Below, piece after piece: positions 56,780 through 64,000 of a stretch of 64,000 nucleotides of DNA; within the stretch, counting starts at the first letter, position 1; the number at the start of each line of letters is the position of its first letter. The stretch comes from Streptococcus oralis (lineage in GTDB: Bacteria > Bacillota > Bacilli > Lactobacillales > Streptococcaceae). The translations under genes and the position numbers were made by a program. Under the pieces are notes generated by a model that was not told the origin of the DNA, made no database searches, and saw only the letters and a list, made by a program, of their open reading frames with translations. Where the stretch lies: assembly GCF_022749195.1 (NCBI RefSeq), contig NZ_CP094226.1:522001-586000 (forward strand). The letters are read 5' to 3'.

Positions 56780-56810
56780 TGGACAATTAATACTATAAAG
56801 GAGAAAAAAC

Positions 56811-57050
56811 ATGGCTCAACAACGTCGTGGCGGATTCAAACGCCGTAAAAAAGTTGATTACATCGCAGCAAACAAAATTGAATATGTTGATTACAAAGAT
56901 ACTGAGCTTCTTAGCCGTTTCGTTTCAGAACGTGGGAAAATCCTTCCTCGTCGTGTAACAGGAACTTCAGCTAAAAACCAACGTAAAGTAACAACAGCTA
57001 TCAAACGCGCTCGCGTAATGGCTTTGATGCCTTTCGTAAACGAAGATTAA
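56811..57050 (+). CDS. rpsR: 30S ribosomal protein S18
   Basis: A 79-residue protein binding with S6 to 16S rRNA. Basic N terminus [17 protein letters not shown], then [34 protein letters not shown], which is the conserved core. The Cys-containing zinc form is absent. AAAGGAGAAAAAAC precedes the ATG. Last gene of the operon, followed by an array of terminators. Confidence 0.98.
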
Positions 57051-57052
57051 AA

Positions 57053-57099
57053 AAGAGGTCCGGGGGACCTCTTTTTCAGACTCTTACGGGTCTTTTTTT
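57053..57099 (+). terminator. rpsR terminators 1 and 2
   Basis: Hairpin AGAGGTCC-GGG-GGACCTCT with T run (57053-57075), directly followed by AGACtC-TTAC-GgGTCT with T run (57077-57099). Confidence 0.88.
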
Positions 57100-57100
57100 C

Positions 57101-57250
57101 ACGAGCCTTGAAATGAGAGAGCGAGTTGAGGTCCAGTGGACCTCTTTTTCATGAGCTCGGAAATAAGAAAGCGAATAAGACCCCGACGGGTCTTTTTTTC
57201 ACGAGCATGGAAATGAGAAGGCGAGTTCAGTCTGGGTGGACCTCTTTTTC
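57101..57250 (+). repeat. Three tandem 50-bp units, each carrying a terminator hairpin
   Basis: Units start exactly 50 nt apart at 57101, 57151 and 57201 with a linker of the type ACGAGCnnGGAAATGAGAAGG, each ending in a hairpin and T run. Unit 1 hairpin is GAGGTCC-AGT-GGACCTC, unit 2 is AGACCCC-GAC-GGGTCT, unit 3 is the imperfect CAGTCTGGGTGGACCTC. The arms differ between units but keep pairing in the first two. Confidence 0.85.
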
Positions 57251-57290
57251 AGATTTTTATAGGATTTTGTTAGAAAGGATTCCCTGTTGA

Positions 57291-57326
57291 CCTAGTAAGA
57301 TTCTTTTGTCTTACTAGGTTTTTTCT
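57291..57326 (+). terminator. Sixth terminator hairpin before the GNAT gene
   Basis: CCTAGTAAGA/TCTTACTAGG perfect 10-bp stem with 8-nt loop and T run. Confidence 0.88.
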
Positions 57327-57381
57327 TTTAATCTTTATTATCGTGCTATAATGGTAGGAGAAAGCTATAAAGGAGCAACTT

Positions 57382-57891
57382 ATGAAGACGACATGTTCAA
57401 TTAGAAAAATGCAAGAATCTGACATTAAAGATCTATCTCGAGGATTTATCAGCCAAGGTTGGCCGGGTAGAGAAGAAATTTTGGCTAGATATTTTCTTGA
57501 ACAAGAAAGTGGGGAGAGAGAAGTTTTAGTTGCAGAGGTTGAGGGTACTGTAGCGGGTTACATTACGATTTTACCCGATGCTAAGCAGGGTCCCTTTGAT
57601 GGAATGGCTCCAGAACTTTCAGATTTCAATGTCTTTGAGCCCTTTCAAAATCAAGGTATTGGAAATCTCTTGCTGGAAGAAGCAGAAAAACGAGTTGGGC
57701 TCATATCGGATAAGGTGACCCTTGGTGTTGGGCTCCATTCAGGGTATGGACCTGCCCAGAGATTGTACATCAAACGAGGCTATATTCCAGATGGGACGGG
57801 TGTTTGGTATCAGAACCATCAAACGGCCATGAATGCGGTTTGTGAAGATATCGGAGAATTAGTCTTGTATCTGTCGAAAAATTTGTTTTAA
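57382..57891 (+). CDS. GNAT-family N-acetyltransferase
   Basis: A 169-residue acetyltransferase. The acetyl-CoA-binding motif A is QNQGIGNLLLEEAEKR near residues 92-107 (Q/RxxGxG/A pattern), and YIKRGYIPDGTGVWY is the C-terminal GNAT core. Acceptor unknown. The promoter (TGCTATAATGG, about 57344-57354) and AAAGGAG precede it. It lies between the terminator array and the exopolysaccharide operon and has its own terminator, so it is probably not part of that operon. Confidence 0.85.
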   Translation: MKTTCSIRKMQESDIKDLSRGFISQGWPGREEILARYFLEQESGEREVLVAEVEGTVAGYITILPDAKQGPFDGMAPELSDFNVFEPFQNQGIGNLLLEEAEKRVGLISDKVTLGVGLHSGYGPAQRLYIKRGYIPDGTGVWYQNHQTAMNAVCEDIGELVLYLSKNLF

Positions 57892-57938
57892 GACAGATTT
57901 TATAAGGTTTAAATTTTAAATATAGCAAACAATCACAG

Positions 57939-57969
57939 TCCCTTTTTCATTCGAAAAAGGGATTTTTTT
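57939..57969 (+). terminator. GNAT gene terminator
   Basis: TCCCTTTTTC-ATTC-GAAAAAGGGA stem with T run. Confidence 0.88.
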
Positions 57970-58328
57970 GTTTGAATGAGCTTGCTCTATTCCTCAAAGT
58001 GGTAGAATATAATTGTTTGAAATTTCGATACAAAAATAAATATTGAAAAAAACATATAAGGTTTAGTTTTTTTAAAATACGGATTCTTTGAAAAGTCTTA
58101 AAATTTCCTAAAATAAGGCTTTTTGGAGGTTGTAAATAACATTGTTACAAAAAGGTTACAAATTGTTAAAATTAAATTAAATGCAATAGTATACTTTAAT
58201 AATAAATTGACATTTAGATTAATAGGCGGTAATATAATTATGATGCTCAAATTAATTGATTTGAGGAATAATTGGATATAGTGATTAATATCATGTATCA
58301 AATATTATTGTAACAAAAGGATACTATA
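57970..58328. other. AT-rich intergenic region upstream of the exopolysaccharide operon
   Basis: About 360 nt with no coding potential and markedly lower GC than its surroundings, rich in short A and T runs. It contains short repeats of GTTACAAA and the operon promoter at 58207-58235. The composition shift marks the left edge of a likely acquired segment. Confidence 0.6.
58207..58235 (+). promoter_or_regulatory. Promoter of the exopolysaccharide operon
   Basis: Consensus TTGACA (58207-58212), 17-nt spacer, TAATAT (58230-58235, overlapping TATAAT at 58233-58238), leaving a leader of about 85 nt. Confidence 0.7.
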
Positions 58329-59486
58329 ATGAAAAAACTGAAAGTGATGGTTGTTTTTGGGACACGACCGGAAGCGATTAAAATGGCCCCTTTAGTGTTG
58401 GAATTGCAAAAACATAGTGACAGTATTGAGACGATAACAGTTGTGACAGCTCAGCATCGTCAAATGCTGGACCAAGTTCTTGAAACGTTTCGCATCGAGC
58501 CACATTATGACCTGGATATTATGGGGAAGAATCAATCTCTCTTAGATATTACTGGAAAAATTTTAGAAAAGTTTGATCCAGTTGTTAAGCAAGAACTTCC
58601 AGATATAATTCTTGTTCATGGAGATACAACAACAACTTTTGCAGCAAGTTTAGTTGCTTTCTATAATCAGGTACGTATCGGCCACGTTGAAGCTGGTCTA
58701 AGGACCTTTGATAAGTATTCTCCTTTCCCAGAAGAAATGAATCGTCAGATGACTGATAACCTAGCGGATCTTTATTTTGCTCCAACTAGTGAGAGTAAAG
58801 AAAATCTCCTCAAGGAAAATCACCCTGAGTCTGCTATTGTCATTACGGGAAATACAGCCATTGATGCCTTGAAACTAACCGTTCAATCGGATTACTATCA
58901 TAAAGTTCTGGATCAATTGGACCCAGATAAGAAACTTGTATTGGTAACCATGCACCGTCGTGAAAATCAAGGTCAACCAATGAGAAATGTCTTTACAGCT
59001 TTACGTGAGATGGTCGATCTTCATCAGGAAATTGAAGTTGTCTATCCTGTTCACCTTAGCCCTGTCGTTCAAGAAGCAGCAAAAGATATCTTAGCTGGGC
59101 ACAATCGTATTCACTTGATTGAACCTCTAGATGTACTTGATTTTCATAATTTGGCTTCAAGAAGCTATTTTATCATGACTGACTCTGGCGGAGTTCAAGA
59201 AGAGGCGCCTTCTCTCGGCAAACCTGTCCTTGTCCTTCGTGACACGACGGAACGTCCAGAAGGAGTACGTGCGGGTACTTTGAAGCTAGTTGGTACGGAT
59301 CCAGTAAGTGTGAAAGAAGCGATGACAGCACTCTTAACAGATGAAACTCTTTATGGACAAATGTCTCAGGCACCAAATCCTAATGGAGATGGAAATGCAT
59401 CAGAAAGAATTGTACAAACTATTAAACATTATTTTGGTTTTGCTGAATCTGCATCAGAGTTTCAAGAAGGAGCTAGGACAAAATGA
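58329..59486 (+). CDS. wecB: UDP-N-acetylglucosamine 2-epimerase (non-hydrolysing)
   Basis: Interconverts UDP-GlcNAc and UDP-ManNAc, 385 residues, WecB/MnaA family. N-terminal VMVVFGTRPEAIKMAPLV, the HVEAGLRTFDKYSPFPEEMNR motif near residue 120 and DSGGVQEEAPSLGKPVLVLRDTTERPE near residue 287 are diagnostic. It is the first gene of the operon and would supply UDP-ManNAc (or UDP-GlcNAc by the reverse reaction) to the GT2 synthase encoded at 60404-61714. AAAGGATAC precedes the ATG. The stop codon overlaps the next ATG. Confidence 0.93.
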   Translation: MKKLKVMVVFGTRPEAIKMAPLVLELQKHSDSIETITVVTAQHRQMLDQVLETFRIEPHYDLDIMGKNQSLLDITGKILEKFDPVVKQELPDIILVHGDTTTTFAASLVAFYNQVRIGHVEAGLRTFDKYSPFPEEMNRQMTDNLADLYFAPTSESKENLLKENHPESAIVITGNTAIDALKLTVQSDYYHKVLDQLDPDKKLVLVTMHRRENQGQPMRNVFTALREMVDLHQEIEVVYPVHLSPVVQEAAKDILAGHNRIHLIEPLDVLDFHNLASRSYFIMTDSGGVQEEAPSLGKPVLVLRDTTERPEGVRAGTLKLVGTDPVSVKEAMTALLTDETLYGQMSQAPNPNGDGNASERIVQTIKHYFGFAESASEFQEGARTK

Positions 59487-60262
59487 AAAATTGGTATAGA
59501 TTTAGAAACTGGTTTCTGACTTTGCTTGGATGTGAGCTTCTTTTGTTGGTACTTTGCTTTTTCTATGCTCGAACTATTATTTTAGAGCAACTATTGTTTT
59601 TTGCCTTAGCCTTATTTTCGGTTTTAGTTTTATCTGATTTACTCCTTGCTTGGACACTTATCTTATCTTTTGGATTGGGAGTCATTGTTTTAATAGCAGG
59701 TGTAGTTTTCATCCCTAATTCTTCAGTTCTGCTTTTATTAATCAGTTTTCCAACATTGCTTGCTATTCTAATGAAGGTTCGACATTATTTATTAAAAATG
59801 GCTTCAAAGGTTCAGGATCAAGAAGATGATGCCAAATCAGATTATCATTCTATGGTAAATAAACAAAGTGAATTTGTGCTACAGTCAGTACTAATTCATT
59901 GGTCGCATGAGGACCTATTTTTTCAGATAAATCCAAGAGAATATAATCGCATGTTAGTTCGTATTCAAGAAATAATTGCTCAAAAACTAAGTTACAATGA
60001 TAAACTTTACTATCTTTCGGAGGGGAATTTTATTATATTATCTAATGATAGTCGGATTTCTTTACAGGAATTTTGTTTGAATAATATAGTGAAGGATCTA
60101 GAGGCTTTGCTTTTCCATGGGAAAAATGGAATGCAAGAGATTCAATTTCAATTAGGTTACTTAGTGGTTGACTCGCAAAATAAAAGTAAGTATCAAAATT
60201 ACTCTGATTTAGCGAGCTATTTGAAACGTCAATTAGAGACGGATATAATTGTAGAATATTAG
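59483..60262 (+). CDS. Membrane protein with degenerate GGDEF domain (PelD/PssE-like)
   Basis: A 259-residue protein: four closely spaced membrane helices (about 10-30, 33-52, 55-78, 80-97), a short charged linker, then a cytoplasmic domain from about 130. Its core YYLSEGNFIILS lines up with the GGDEF-domain stretch YRLGGDEFAILL, with S179-E180-G181-N182-F183 in place of GGDEF, and QLGYLVV followed by a helix with the spacing of the domain's SxG and ADxALY ends. The I-site RxxD position reads SYND (170-173), lacking Arg. So it should neither make c-di-GMP nor bind it by the standard I-site. By context a co-receptor or scaffold of the GT2 synthase; this is inference. Overlaps wecB by 4 nt. Confidence 0.6.
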   Translation: MKNWYRFRNWFLTLLGCELLLLVLCFFYARTIILEQLLFFALALFSVLVLSDLLLAWTLILSFGLGVIVLIAGVVFIPNSSVLLLLISFPTLLAILMKVRHYLLKMASKVQDQEDDAKSDYHSMVNKQSEFVLQSVLIHWSHEDLFFQINPREYNRMLVRIQEIIAQKLSYNDKLYYLSEGNFIILSNDSRISLQEFCLNNIVKDLEALLFHGKNGMQEIQFQLGYLVVDSQNKSKYQNYSDLASYLKRQLETDIIVEY

Positions 60263-60270
60263 GAGGGGAA

Positions 60271-60411
60271 ATGACTCTAACAGACCTATTTTTCAGAATT
60301 GCTTTGGGAGTGAGTTTCTTTTTTGGAATTTGTTTTGCCATACTATTTATTGCATATAATATTCTTTACTATCGGGTGAATAAGAATTTTAAGGCGGTGA
60401 AACATGATTAG
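60271..60411 (+). CDS. 46-residue single-helix membrane peptide in the exopolysaccharide operon
   Basis: ATG at 60271 directly follows AGGAGGGGAA, a near-perfect ribosome binding site, and the frame ends by overlapping the GT2 start (ATGATTAG). The peptide is mostly one hydrophobic helix (about residues 6-34, LFFRIALGVSFFFGICFAILFIAYNILYY, quoted in part) with a basic tail RVNKNFKAVKHD. Tiny subunits of this kind accompany synthases in PNAG (PgaD) and cellulose systems; a role as synthase partner is inferred. Confidence 0.75.
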   Translation: MTLTDLFFRIALGVSFFFGICFAILFIAYNILYYRVNKNFKAVKHD

Positions 60412-61714
60412 TCAAATACTGATGATTTTTACCTTGCTTACAATTTGGATTTCTCTAGCTTGGGGCTTGGTAATTCTCTTTTCGGCAGTACACTTTTGGT
60501 TTAAACACAGTGATTTTCGTGTAGATACTTCGCCACTTCCTTATTATCCGAAGGTTACCATTGTCGTACCTGCTCATAATGAGGATGTGGTTATTGCACA
60601 GACGACAAAAGCTATCTTGGATATGAATTATCCTCACGACCGTGTGGAGTTGCTCTTGTTTGCGGATAACTGTTCGGACAATACCTATGCAGAGTGTTTG
60701 TCTGTACAAGCCATGCCCGAATATGCAGGAAGAAATCTGACTATTATCGACCGTACTGGTACGGGAGGAAAAGCGGGCGTTCTAAACGATGCTTTGGAGA
60801 TGGCAACAGGCGAATATATCTGTGTTTATGATGCGGATGCCATGCCTGAAAAGAACGCTCTTTATTTCCTTGTAAAAGAAGTGATGAAGGATCCAGAACG
60901 TCACGTGGCATCTTTCGGTCGCAACAAGACTCGAAATGCCAATCAAAATTTCTTGACACGTTGTATCAACCAAGAAATCGTTGTTACTCAGCGGGTGCAC
61001 CACGTTGGGATGTGGCATCTCTTTAAAATTGGGCGTATCCCAGGAACCAACTTTCTCATTCAAACCGACTTTGTAAAGAGTATCGGTGGTTGGAAAAATG
61101 GTGCCTTGACCGAGGATACCGATATTTCCTTCAAAATCATGCAGAGTGGTAAATTGATTGCCCTTGCCTATAATTCAGAGGCTTTCCAACAAGAACCTGA
61201 GACTTTAAAGAGTTACTATATGCAGCGTAAACGGTGGGCGAAAGGAAATTATGAAGTTGTTCTCTCAAACTTTAGGCATTTATTTAGCAGAGGAAACTGG
61301 CGTGTCAAACTAGAAGTATTTAATTATTCTTGTGTCTTCTTTTGGTTTAACTTTGCCATTGTTCTCTCAGATTTAATTTTCCTAGCGAATGTGCTAGCGA
61401 TCTGCCTTAATCTTTTCTTACCAGATGTCAGAGTTCCATTCGCTTTTGATGCGGACAATATCTACATCGCCCAGCTTATGCTCTTCAACTGGATACTTAT
61501 GATTGGTCTGTATTTGATGCAAATTATGACAGCATTAGCAAGTCAATTTGGACAAGCGACGACTAAACAAATCTGGTTGGCCTTGGCATCTTATTTTAGT
61601 TATTCTCAGATCTTTATTATCGTATCGGTTGATTCTATCTCATCTATTATACTGGATAAGGTACTTCGACGGAAAGAAACCAAGTGGGTTAAAACCAAAC
61701 GGTTTGCAGGATAG
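60404..61714 (+). CDS. Processive family 2 glycosyltransferase (exopolysaccharide synthase)
   Basis: A 436-residue membrane synthase of the BcsA/PgaC/HasA class. One N-terminal helix (about 8-30), catalytic domain with VTIVVPAHNE near 51, DAD at 143-145, TED at 236-238 and the processivity motif QRKRW at 274-278, then about three to four C-terminal helices that form the export channel. It lacks a PilZ domain. It would polymerise and export a beta-linked amino-sugar or hexose chain; with a 2-epimerase in the operon, ManNAc or GlcNAc is the likely unit. The ATG overlaps the small peptide gene. Confidence 0.9.
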   Translation: MISQILMIFTLLTIWISLAWGLVILFSAVHFWFKHSDFRVDTSPLPYYPKVTIVVPAHNEDVVIAQTTKAILDMNYPHDRVELLLFADNCSDNTYAECLSVQAMPEYAGRNLTIIDRTGTGGKAGVLNDALEMATGEYICVYDADAMPEKNALYFLVKEVMKDPERHVASFGRNKTRNANQNFLTRCINQEIVVTQRVHHVGMWHLFKIGRIPGTNFLIQTDFVKSIGGWKNGALTEDTDISFKIMQSGKLIALAYNSEAFQQEPETLKSYYMQRKRWAKGNYEVVLSNFRHLFSRGNWRVKLEVFNYSCVFFWFNFAIVLSDLIFLANVLAICLNLFLPDVRVPFAFDADNIYIAQLMLFNWILMIGLYLMQIMTALASQFGQATTKQIWLALASYFSYSQIFIIVSVDSISSIILDKVLRRKETKWVKTKRFAG

Positions 61715-61722
61715 GAGGTTCT

Positions 61723-62826
61723 ATGAAAACAAATAAATTAAAATATGTCTGGTTTGTGCTCATCCTATCTATCTTTTGTTTAACTTTGTTTTTGGCAAGA
61801 GGAAGGACTAAAATCGAGATGCGTAATCGAATTTACAGTCAATGGAGTCAACAGTTCCTTGTTACAAAAGGCGATCAGTCTTATGTTCGTACGACGAATG
61901 ATTCTGAGGAAACGACAGTTCTATCAGAAGCTCAAAGTTACGGCATGCTCATAACGGTTTTAGCAGCCCAAAAAGGACAAGCAACACAAGCAGATTTTGA
62001 TAGCCTTTATCGCTATTATCAAAATCATCGCATAGAGGGAACGCAGTTAATGTCTTGGAAACAAGTGATCAAAAATGGTAGTGAAACGGTCAAAAAGCAA
62101 AATGCAACTGATGGAGATCTCTACATTGCTTATTCCTTGATTGAAGCTTCTAAGCAGTGGCCAGATAAAGCACAGGAATACCAAGAACAGGCTAAAAAAA
62201 TCTTAGAAGATATTCTTCGATACAATTACAATAAAGAGACAGGTGTTTTAACAGTAGGGAACTGGGCAAATAAGAATTCCGATTATTATTACTTGATGCG
62301 TACGTCTGACACCTTACCTCACTATTTCCAATCTTTTTATGACCTGACTGGAAATAAACAGTGGTTAGACATTAAGGATAAGATGCTTGGCCAACTAGAG
62401 CAAATCAGTTCTCAATCTGATACGGGTCTCTTGCCAGACTTTATCTGGGCTGAGAAGTCTGGGGCACGTCTTGTTGATGCCAACACTATCGAATCTCAAT
62501 ACGATGGGGCGTACTCTTATAACGCTTGTCGTTTGCCATATCACTTGTCACAGAGTCAGGATGAAAGAAGCCAAAAACTCGTTCAAAAGATGATGGATTT
62601 CTTTATGAAAGAGCAACGCATTTATGCTGGTTATGACTTGAACGGAACGGCCCTCAATCAATACCAGGCAGGTAGTTTCTTGGCACCGATTACCTATGCA
62701 TCTGACAAGGGAGAAGGTTATCTGAAACTTCTTCAGCAAAATAAATACATTTTCACACAAGATTTACCTTTGGACAACTACTATGATGCAACGATGATTA
62801 CCATGATTGCTCTAGAGATGTTCTAG
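61723..62826 (+). CDS. Membrane-anchored glycoside hydrolase family 8 (BcsZ/PssZ-like)
   Basis: A 367-residue extracellular hydrolase anchored by one N-terminal helix (about 8-26). GH8 signatures: the acid Glu in SEAQSYGM (E69) and NATDGDLYIAYSL (D130, D132), then the C-terminal QYQAGSFLAP region. GH8 enzymes accompany synthase-dependent polysaccharide systems (BcsZ in cellulose, PssZ in Listeria) and cut the nascent chain. AGGAGG precedes the ATG by 4-5 nt; 8 nt after the GT2 gene. Last gene of the operon, followed by a terminator. Confidence 0.9.
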   Translation: MKTNKLKYVWFVLILSIFCLTLFLARGRTKIEMRNRIYSQWSQQFLVTKGDQSYVRTTNDSEETTVLSEAQSYGMLITVLAAQKGQATQADFDSLYRYYQNHRIEGTQLMSWKQVIKNGSETVKKQNATDGDLYIAYSLIEASKQWPDKAQEYQEQAKKILEDILRYNYNKETGVLTVGNWANKNSDYYYLMRTSDTLPHYFQSFYDLTGNKQWLDIKDKMLGQLEQISSQSDTGLLPDFIWAEKSGARLVDANTIESQYDGAYSYNACRLPYHLSQSQDERSQKLVQKMMDFFMKEQRIYAGYDLNGTALNQYQAGSFLAPITYASDKGEGYLKLLQQNKYIFTQDLPLDNYYDATMITMIALEMF

Positions 62827-62835
62827 GATGAAAAG

Positions 62836-62864
62836 GGAGGGCTAGTTTTACTAGCTCTCTTTTT
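62836..62864 (+). terminator. Terminator of the exopolysaccharide operon
   Basis: GAGgGCTAGT-TTT-ACTAGCTCTC stem with a T run. Confidence 0.8.
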
Positions 62865-62910
62865 GATAGGATTTTCATCTTTTTTCAAAAAAGGAATTTC
62901 ATCAGCTTTA

Positions 62911-62919
62911 TGGTATAAT
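62911..62919 (+). promoter_or_regulatory. Extended -10 promoter of the HAD-cyclophilin gene
   Basis: TGG-TATAAT about 30 nt before the ATG; no good -35. Confidence 0.6.
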
Positions 62920-62948
62920 GGAAAGAGTGATGGAAAAGAGGTAGAGAG

Positions 62949-64000
62949 ATGGATGCGAAATTAAAATACAAGGCAAAGAAGATTAAAATCATCTTTTTTG
63001 ATATTGATGATACCTTACGTACGTCAAAGACAGGTTTTATTCCAGCTACAATTCCCACTGTCTTTAAACAGTTACGTGAGAAAGGAATTTTAACAGGAAT
63101 TGCCTCTGGTCGTGGTATTTTCGGTGTTGTTTCAGAGATTCGTGAGCTCAAACCTGACTTTTTTGTAACCCTAAATGGGGGCTATATAGAAGATAAAAAA
63201 GGGAAGGTGATTTATCAGCATCAGATTGACAAGTCAGATGTTGAGGAGTATGTCTCTTGGACGAAGGAAGAGGGAATTGAGTATGGCTTGGTTGGCAGTC
63301 ATGACGCCAAACTTTCTACTCGAACAGAACTGATCAGTGAGGCTATTGACCCGATTTATCCAAACTTGGATGTGGATCCTAACTTCCATGAAAAAGCAGA
63401 TATTTACCAGATGTGGACCTTTGAAGATAGAGGGGATGACTTGCGGTTACCAGATAGTCTCTCTGGTAAACTTCGCATGGTGCGTTGGCATGAACATTCA
63501 TCTGATATCGTACCGATTTCAGGATCCAAAGCAACTGGTGTTGCCAAGGTTGTAGAATATCTAGGCTTGAAACCAGAAAATGTTATGGTCTTTGGAGATG
63601 GGCTCAATGACTTGGAACTCTTTGATTATGCTGGAATCAGTATTGCTATGGGAGTTTCCCATGAAAAAATCAAAGAAAAAGCAGATTATATTACAAAAAC
63701 AGTAGAAGAAGATGGTATTTTTGATGCCTTAGAAGGATTTGGTATGGTAGAAAAAGAATTGCATTTCCCACAAGTAGAAATTGAAACAGTAGAAGGTCCT
63801 CTTGCGACCATTAAGACAAATCACGGAGACTTGCGTATCAAGCTCTTCCCTGAACATGCTCCTAAAACAGTAGCCAACTTTGTTGCTCTGTCAAAAGACG
63901 GTTACTATGATGGTGTGATTTTCCACCGTATTATCAAGGACTTTATGATCCAAGGTGGAGACCCAACTGGTACTGGTATGGGTGGTGAGTCAATTTATGG
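62949..64000 (+). CDS. HAD (Cof-type) phosphatase fused to cyclophilin peptidyl-prolyl isomerase, 3' end outside window
   Basis: First 350 residues of a bifunctional protein. Residues 1-270 form a Cof/HAD-IIB phosphatase: motif I FFDIDDT near 17, motif [14 protein letters not shown] near 217. From about residue 280 a cyclophilin domain begins ([39 protein letters not shown]), still open at the window edge. Such fusions are typical of streptococci. AGAGGTAGAGAG precedes the ATG. I recall this gene directly after rpsR in S. pneumoniae, which would make the intervening 5.9 kb here accessory. Confidence 0.92.

Follow-up and report, generated by a model that had tools for sequence, protein, structure and literature searches.

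A conserved five-gene operon of Streptococcus oralis, predicted to direct synthase-dependent exopolysaccharide formation, with a degenerate relative of cyclic di-GMP receptors

Gene content and distribution of the operon

The DNA analysed here, referred to as the window, is a stretch of 64,000 nucleotides of Streptococcus oralis (contig NZ_CP094226.1, positions 522,001 to 586,000 of the forward strand). At 58329-62826 it holds five + strand open reading frames (ORFs) whose junctions span 4 to 8 nt, as established from the ORF list and by reading the DNA, and all five frames are open. An earlier note, made from the sequence alone, had claimed five coupled genes at this place and had taken them for an operon of synthase-dependent exopolysaccharide formation, one subunit of which has a degenerate GGDEF fold. 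The coupled genes are there, and the kinship to the Yda and Pss systems described below supports the predicted function. We consider it probable that they form a dedicated synthase-dependent exopolysaccharide operon of the Yda/Pss lineage, in which a receptor of cyclic di-GMP (c-di-GMP) has become a pseudo-receptor and whose product is probably a polymer containing N-acetylmannosamine (ManNAc).

The first gene (58329..59486, +) encodes a non-hydrolysing epimerase of the WecB/MnaA type, acting on uridine diphosphate N-acetylglucosamine (UDP-GlcNAc), that scores 512 bits on TIGR00236 against a cut-off of 210 and would supply UDP-ManNAc; it is the sole match to PF02350 in the complete 1.88-Mb genome. 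The second gene, orf2 (59483..60262, +), specifies a four-helix membrane protein (three spans in the hydropathy scan) that, judged by structure model and fold search, has a degenerate GGDEF fold like that of YdaK and PssE. It is followed by the gene of a 46-residue peptide with a single span by hydropathy (60271..60411, +), a putative synthase subunit on account of its conservation, and by that of a membrane protein of glycosyltransferase family 2 (GT2; 60404..61714, +), a predicted polysaccharide synthase according to Pfam/NCBIfam matches, motifs and tree. The last gene (61723..62826, +) encodes a membrane-anchored hydrolase of glycoside hydrolase family 8 (GH8; PF01270), predicted to trim the polymer outside the cell.

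A GT2 match of some kind was found in 100 of 147 Streptococcus genomes and an orthologue (67-100% identity) in 31, the window's included. In the synteny search across Streptococcus that the earlier note had proposed, all 31 carried the five genes in one order, with the epimerase gene first and the small peptide (14 of them aligned) always present. The note had presented the set as one of Mitis streptococci, which proved too narrow: the matches listed include S. sanguinis, S. parasanguinis, S. australis, S. vestibularis, S. ferus, S. orisasini, S. devriesei and S. macacae, and among them are at least 11 other genera, namely Liquorilactobacillus, Ligilactobacillus, Limosilactobacillus, Lactobacillus, Weissella, Lactococcus, Enterococcus, Vagococcus, Leuconostoc, Lactiplantibacillus and Levilactobacillus. 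S. pneumoniae, S. mitis and S. gordonii are not among the matches listed, but since close relatives of the window may be missing from these, nothing follows from it. At 47 non-streptococcal Lactobacillales loci, some of which end at contig ends, orf2 was recovered in 46 and GH8 in 44, and 43 had an ORF of 35-75 residues between orf2 and GT2, recognised by place and size without a homology check for each. The operon genes of Weissella confusa FS54 (L128) stand in scrambled order.

The three genes upstream we take to be rpsF, ssb and rpsR; a family search identified a GNAT gene directly upstream of the operon and a HAD/cyclophilin gene downstream. According to the note, placement within a capsule or teichoic acid pathway would have spoken against its proposal, and the two flanking genes that were annotated are unrelated to either. 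The rpsR, GNAT and HAD/cyclophilin neighbours are common to 7 of the 30 other streptococcal blocks; the rest are without them within the 10 kb fetched. A consensus scan gave a candidate promoter, TTGACA-17-TAATAT (58207..58235, +), but as the scan returned 26 sites against a mean of 16.0 in shuffled sequence, support for it is weak. A possible terminator, a stem followed by a T-rich stretch (62841..62855), is left without a fixed strand, as the scan places it on the - strand and the T run, read directly, follows on the + strand. A search of 56800-63000 against Rfam gave no match. Between rpsR and the GNAT gene (57062-57271) lie repeated T-rich terminator-like segments, including a 74-nt unit that occurs twice (82% identity, spacing 100).

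Synthase, hydrolase and probable product

Processive GT2 enzymes are characterised by the motifs D, DxD, TED and QxxRW. In the window GT2 these read D88, DAD (143-145), TED (236-238) and QRKRW (274-278), and they are invariant in 13 of 13 aligned proteins, so the processive motifs that the note had claimed are in place. We found that PgaC_IcaA (TIGR03937) is the nearest named family, with 132.8 bits against a cut-off of 422.3; the proposed profile comparison with the cellulose synthase BcsA (TIGR03030) gave 81.8 against 699.1, and the protein thus falls below both. The PNAG (poly-N-acetylglucosamine) synthases PgaCD and IcaAD resemble the operon in pairing a membrane GT2 with a small membrane protein (PgaD in the former), but identity to Escherichia coli PgaC is only 25%, and both this protein and E. 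coli BcsA lie far off in a GT2 tree of 42 chosen rows. In that tree Streptococcus, the other Lactobacillales and a set of Paenibacillus-like proteins form one clade (support 97/98) that stands apart from, and is sister to, the GT2s of the Bacillus subtilis ydaJKLMN type. The Streptococcus proteins form a clade of their own (99/94) beside Liquorilactobacillus (96/81), not Lactococcus, which suggests that the streptococcal operon was acquired by transfer from lactobacilli.

Outside Lactobacillales the same lineage can be followed further. A GT2 match at E <= 1e-25 occurred in 77 of 299 genomes of the same class, and 16 genomes outside Lactobacillales exceeded 500 bits; we call these Paenibacillus-like, a label of our own inference. 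The gene context was read for four of these 16 loci (L170-L173) and for 14 lower-scoring loci (L176-L189). All four of the former have the order hydrolase, orf2, small ORF and GT2, and the profile of the small peptide matched in three. Judged by ORF size, 10 of the 14 lower-scoring loci (not L176 and L186-L188) have the ydaJKLMN order; L180, the sole such locus confirmed gene by gene with Pfam, encodes GH8-clan, GGDEF, DUF2334, GT2 and BcsB proteins. With the orf2 profile the receptor gene was recognised in all 4 Paenibacillus-like loci and in 8 of the 10 loci of ydaJKLMN type. The Paenibacillus-like loci share with the window the orf2-peptide-GT2 core and its order, with 45-50% GT2 identity, but differ in an intact RxxD motif in the receptor, in 12-21 GGDEF matches per genome and in the upstream hydrolase (of family GH126 in L170); no epimerase match was found within them. 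Compared with ydaJKLMN, through other genomes with this locus type rather than B. subtilis itself, the operon likewise has a degenerate-GGDEF membrane protein beside a homologous GT2 (31-35% identity) plus a hydrolase; it adds the peptide and the epimerase, has GH8 in the place of GH126, has lost RxxD, lies in a genome without a GGDEF match and is without the genes for YdaL (DUF2334) and YdaN (BcsB-like).

The structure model of the GT2 is weak (predicted local distance difference test, pLDDT, 63). In the fold search it matched an archaeal mannosyltransferase best, with cellulose and hyaluronan synthases ranking behind, and the search did not separate lipid-linked transferases from processive synthases. 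The GT2 could therefore be imagined as non-processive, making a lipid-linked sugar or decorating teichoic acid or capsule with ManNAc or GlcNAc, so that the operon would modify another glycan. That the operon is without a BcsB-like co-subunit fits such a role, and so does the presence here of the genome's sole epimerase match, because any UDP-ManNAc that an enzyme of this type makes for another glycan would have to come from it. Considering, however, the invariance of QxxRW and TED, the sister position of YdaM-type synthases and the constant pairing with GH8 in Streptococcus (31/31), we regard a non-processive GT2 as very unlikely.

The anchored GH8 enzyme that the note had claimed is well recognisable (PF01270, 106.9 bits), with the acid Glu and the Asp of the TDGD motif, one N-terminal span and neither lipobox nor LPXTG motif in a sequence scan. 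The nearest solved structures were deposited as a glucanase and chitosanases, and a cellulase and a xylanase are among the further matches. In an alignment of 88 GH8 proteins, from which 6 short fragments were left out, E69 (acid) and D132 are kept in 87 and D261, a candidate base, in all 88. Given this conservation, hydrolase activity is likely. As regards the catalytic-base positions of the GH8 subfamilies, the CelA-type Asp is replaced by Asn in 87 of 88, and the Glu of the K17 type is kept in only 35 of 88; a K17-chitosanase type with Glu257 as the base was therefore rejected. GH8 (PF01270) occurs in 32 of the 147 Streptococcus genomes, the 31 operon carriers and G143, which has a GH8 gene (G143:C4:26346-27317) and no operon GT2. 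A paper on the Streptococcus gordonii secretome that was followed as a lead proved unrelated, as it mentions GH85 and not GH8.

The note had attributed a GH8 enzyme to the Pss system of Listeria too. This is incorrect: PssZ is classed as GH126 (PMC7479077), and the window hydrolase gave no match at E <= 10 to the GH126 structures of PssZ (6r2m) and CPF_2247 (3ren). Conversely, three hydrolases tested from outside Lactobacillales, one of a Paenibacillus-like locus (L170) and two of ydaJKLMN-type loci (L180, L181), match only these two structures. By their sequences, the hydrolase has thus been replaced between lineages, with GH126 in the loci tested outside Lactobacillales and true GH8 here.

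At the 47 non-streptococcal loci an epimerase gene adjoins the core in 19 (10 upstream, 9 downstream), one locus has an epimerase fragment only, on the opposite strand, and in 27 no epimerase was found in the DNA fetched, which means that the core does not require ManNAc. Either the epimerase was thus added to the core several times or it changed place relative to it, and its recurrence on either side speaks for a ManNAc product without proving it. One could instead assume PNAG or a glucan as the product, with the epimerase serving another pathway. PgaC_IcaA is after all the nearest named GT2 family (133 bits), the hydrolase is nearest to glucanase and chitosanases, and many relatives are without an adjoining epimerase. 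Nevertheless, the score lies far below the 422-bit cut-off, identity to PgaC is low, no deacetylase was detected among the operon's five genes with Pfam/NCBIfam, and the epimerase heads every streptococcal block and flanks the core elsewhere. We therefore think a PNAG-like or glucan product somewhat unlikely. Of the ManNAc or GlcNAc polymer claimed in the note, the ManNAc part is what the WecB/MnaA-type sequence of the epimerase points to, and the product is probably a ManNAc-containing polymer.

The GGDEF-fold subunit and c-di-GMP

In the structure model of orf2 the GGDEF fold comprises residues 109-258 and lies behind the membrane helices, as in the YdaK/PssE class, which agrees with the degenerate GGDEF fold in a four-helix protein that the note had claimed. 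The Pfam GGDEF profile (PF00990) matches none of the 20 members of alignment A2 at E 0.1; among relatives its cut-off is passed by L116, L121, L170 and L172 and not by L098, L080, L093 and L103. The GGDEF position itself reads SEGNF, and the primary I-site, RxxD in this class, reads SYND. Switching on polymer formation in B. subtilis is reported to require a cyclase as well as the I-site residues R202 and D205 of YdaK (PMC5422440), and the orf2 homologue of L180 has RETD with its Arg at residue 202, the same number as in that report. All 14 homologues from the same taxonomic class outside Lactobacillales have RxxD, against none of the 41 from non-streptococcal Lactobacillales, of which 33 have an Arg one residue upstream; none of the 31 Streptococcus orf2 proteins has it, or an Arg at either position (five receptor fragments shorter than 230 residues were left out of these counts, and the rows of L185 and L189 were chosen by position and size). 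The loss of RxxD is borne out by 19 named streptococcal rows, with some genomes contributing more than one row. A second orf2-like protein of 249 residues lies downstream of the operon in Streptococcus sp. DD12 (L073:9028-9774).

The genome of the window gave no match to PF00990, PF00563 (EAL) or PilZ and thus shows none of the c-di-GMP enzymes. By contrast, 20 of 20 genomes searched from the same taxonomic class outside Lactobacillales have GGDEF matches, 4 to 31 each, sometimes with the orf2 homologue itself included (the DNA read from one of them, the genome of L176, contains no orf2, and in five no locus was read). GGDEF matches above the cut-off occur in 7 of 147 Streptococcus genomes and in none of the 31 operon carriers, although operon and GGDEF are not significantly exclusive (0/31 versus 7/116, Fisher p 0.35). 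Cyclase-grade matches (E <= 1e-25) were present in 14 of 39 named operon-bearing genomes, made up of 13 of the 32 from outside Streptococcus and one of the 7 streptococcal ones (S. vestibularis); matches at orf2 itself were not counted, and weak matches in frames of ~670-700 residues, which we take to be GdpP, were excluded. The assumption that I-site loss tracks cyclase loss holds for Streptococcus as compared with the class outside Lactobacillales and fails inside Lactobacillales: six of the seven Lactiplantibacillus and Levilactobacillus genomes with a cyclase have no Arg at the I-site, and six Enterococcus and one Weissella confusa keep the shifted Arg with no cyclase-grade match.

Considering the lost I-site and the genome without GGDEF, EAL or PilZ match, the Pss-like c-di-GMP control that the note's comparison implied is unlikely, and orf2 has probably lost the ability to bind c-di-GMP at its usual site. 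It might still sense a nucleotide, c-di-AMP or scavenged c-di-GMP, through an altered site. The Asp of RxxD does persist in the window, most other Lactobacillales homologues have the shifted Arg, and the domain has been retained, unlike that of streptococcal PelD. Yet no Streptococcus orf2 has an Arg at either position, orf2 diverges fast (30-71% identity to the window within A2) and the genome is without GGDEF or EAL match, which makes nucleotide sensing quite unlikely in our view. Streptococcal PelD is reported to have lost its GGDEF domain (PMC7112168, PMC12345266); that orf2 has kept the fold suggests a structural role.

Several further GGDEF proteins were noticed. Seven Streptococcus genomes (G037, G058, G061, G078, G096, G114 and G138) have a GGDEF match near a distant GT2, in six of them in an open frame of ~700-770 residues and in G058 with an internal stop; these possibly represent a separate, cellulose-like system with c-di-GMP. 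The GGDEF match of G148 has one internal stop as well, and a full GGDEF protein directly follows one ydaJKLMN-type operon (L185:9639-10412).

The divergence of orf2 is part of that of a larger block. In 150-nt windows from 59379 to 60428, identity to L032, L033, L034 and L036 drops to 66-85%, against 91-96% in the adjoining windows and 84-99% in the remaining operon. This block of about 1 kb takes in orf2 and the peptide together with the last part of the epimerase gene; it has sharp edges and varies between strains as a unit. Synonymous divergence (dS) is 1.3-1.5 for orf2 versus 0.2-0.4 for epimerase, GT2 and GH8, and L031 has the orf2 allele of the window (dS 0.013). As orf2 and the peptide move as one allele block, they may well form a physical pair. 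Protein P0002 resembles a recombinant of the two allele types. The divergence of orf2 could also be read as decay, the more so as the relative in Streptococcus sp. Marseille-Q5986 (L102) has fragmented frames and no orf2 match, by decay or sequencing error. With all five frames of the operon open in the window, a ratio of nonsynonymous to synonymous divergence (dN/dS) of 0.02-0.05 for the GT2 and invariant catalytic motifs, we give next to no credence to a decaying relic.

Proposed function and significance

The combined data are most consistent with a polymer-forming system in which the epimerase would convert UDP-GlcNAc into UDP-ManNAc and the GT2 would polymerise UDP-ManNAc (or GlcNAc) at the membrane and export the chain through its own membrane helices. 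The peptide and the GGDEF-fold protein, the latter derived from c-di-GMP receptors like YdaK and PssE, would assist the GT2 as one subcomplex, and the anchored GH8 would cut the polymer outside the cell. Because orf2 probably cannot bind c-di-GMP at the usual site, the synthase may run constitutively or respond to transcription or another ligand.

Several points weigh against this reading. No polymer has been seen; DUF2334 and BcsB-like proteins are missing among the operon's five genes (no genome-wide search was made), and ydaLMN are reported to be essential in B. subtilis (PMC13274460). To these have to be added the weak GT2 model with its archaeal best match, the loci without an epimerase and the uncoupling of I-site and cyclases within Lactobacillales, as well as the genome of S. 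vestibularis AS012761 (L063, genome G179), which carries both the operon and a GGDEF protein.

The note had called the operon Pss/Pel-like. The first half stands, as GT2 tree and GGDEF-fold subunit place it in the Yda/Pss lineage; the likeness to Pel is weak. Listeria PssA-E and PssZ (the latter, through 6r2m, being the sole Listeria protein compared) share the suspected ManNAc chemistry, the degenerate GGDEF subunit and a polymer-cutting enzyme. Pss is described as a beta-1,4-ManNAc chain with galactose branches and differs in being made at high c-di-GMP (PMC11439720), besides the GH126 nature of PssZ. Streptococcal Pel is likewise a synthase-dependent polymer without c-di-GMP control in streptococci (PMC12345266), but it uses another synthase and a PelD without GGDEF domain, and no PelF, PelG or PelA family was found among the five operon proteins (no genome-wide search was made). 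The gts operon of Lactobacillus acidophilus also combines a GT2 with a membrane partner in a lactic acid bacterium, but its receptor is the degenerate EAL protein PdeB (PMC6123363). In accordance with the note, which knew of no description of the set, none was found for streptococci among the open-access PubMed Central papers listed in the searches, which do not cover subscription papers; a mariner mutagenesis paper, which concerns gtf genes of S. mutans, and a paper on a Lactobacillus johnsonii glucan proved unrelated.

A bolder reading, possible but put forward tentatively, is that a Lactobacillales-wide peptide/GT2/GGDEF-fold system was cut off from c-di-GMP in streptococci, that the pseudo-receptor is a fast-diverging structural or retuned subunit swapped together with the peptide, and that oral commensals make with it an undescribed matrix polymer of beta-1,4-ManNAc. 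The matrix polysaccharides described from oral streptococci are for the most part glucans formed from sucrose and Wzy capsules, to which Pel has recently been added (in part PMC9413593 and PMC12345266). Through the conserved synthase operon of S. sanguinis, S. parasanguinis, oralis-like and other species, a separate surface polymer would join these, with relevance to plaque and adhesion. The operon would also be a natural example of a receptor that outlived its second messenger, and could therefore show what keeps such a synthase active or inactive when c-di-GMP is absent.

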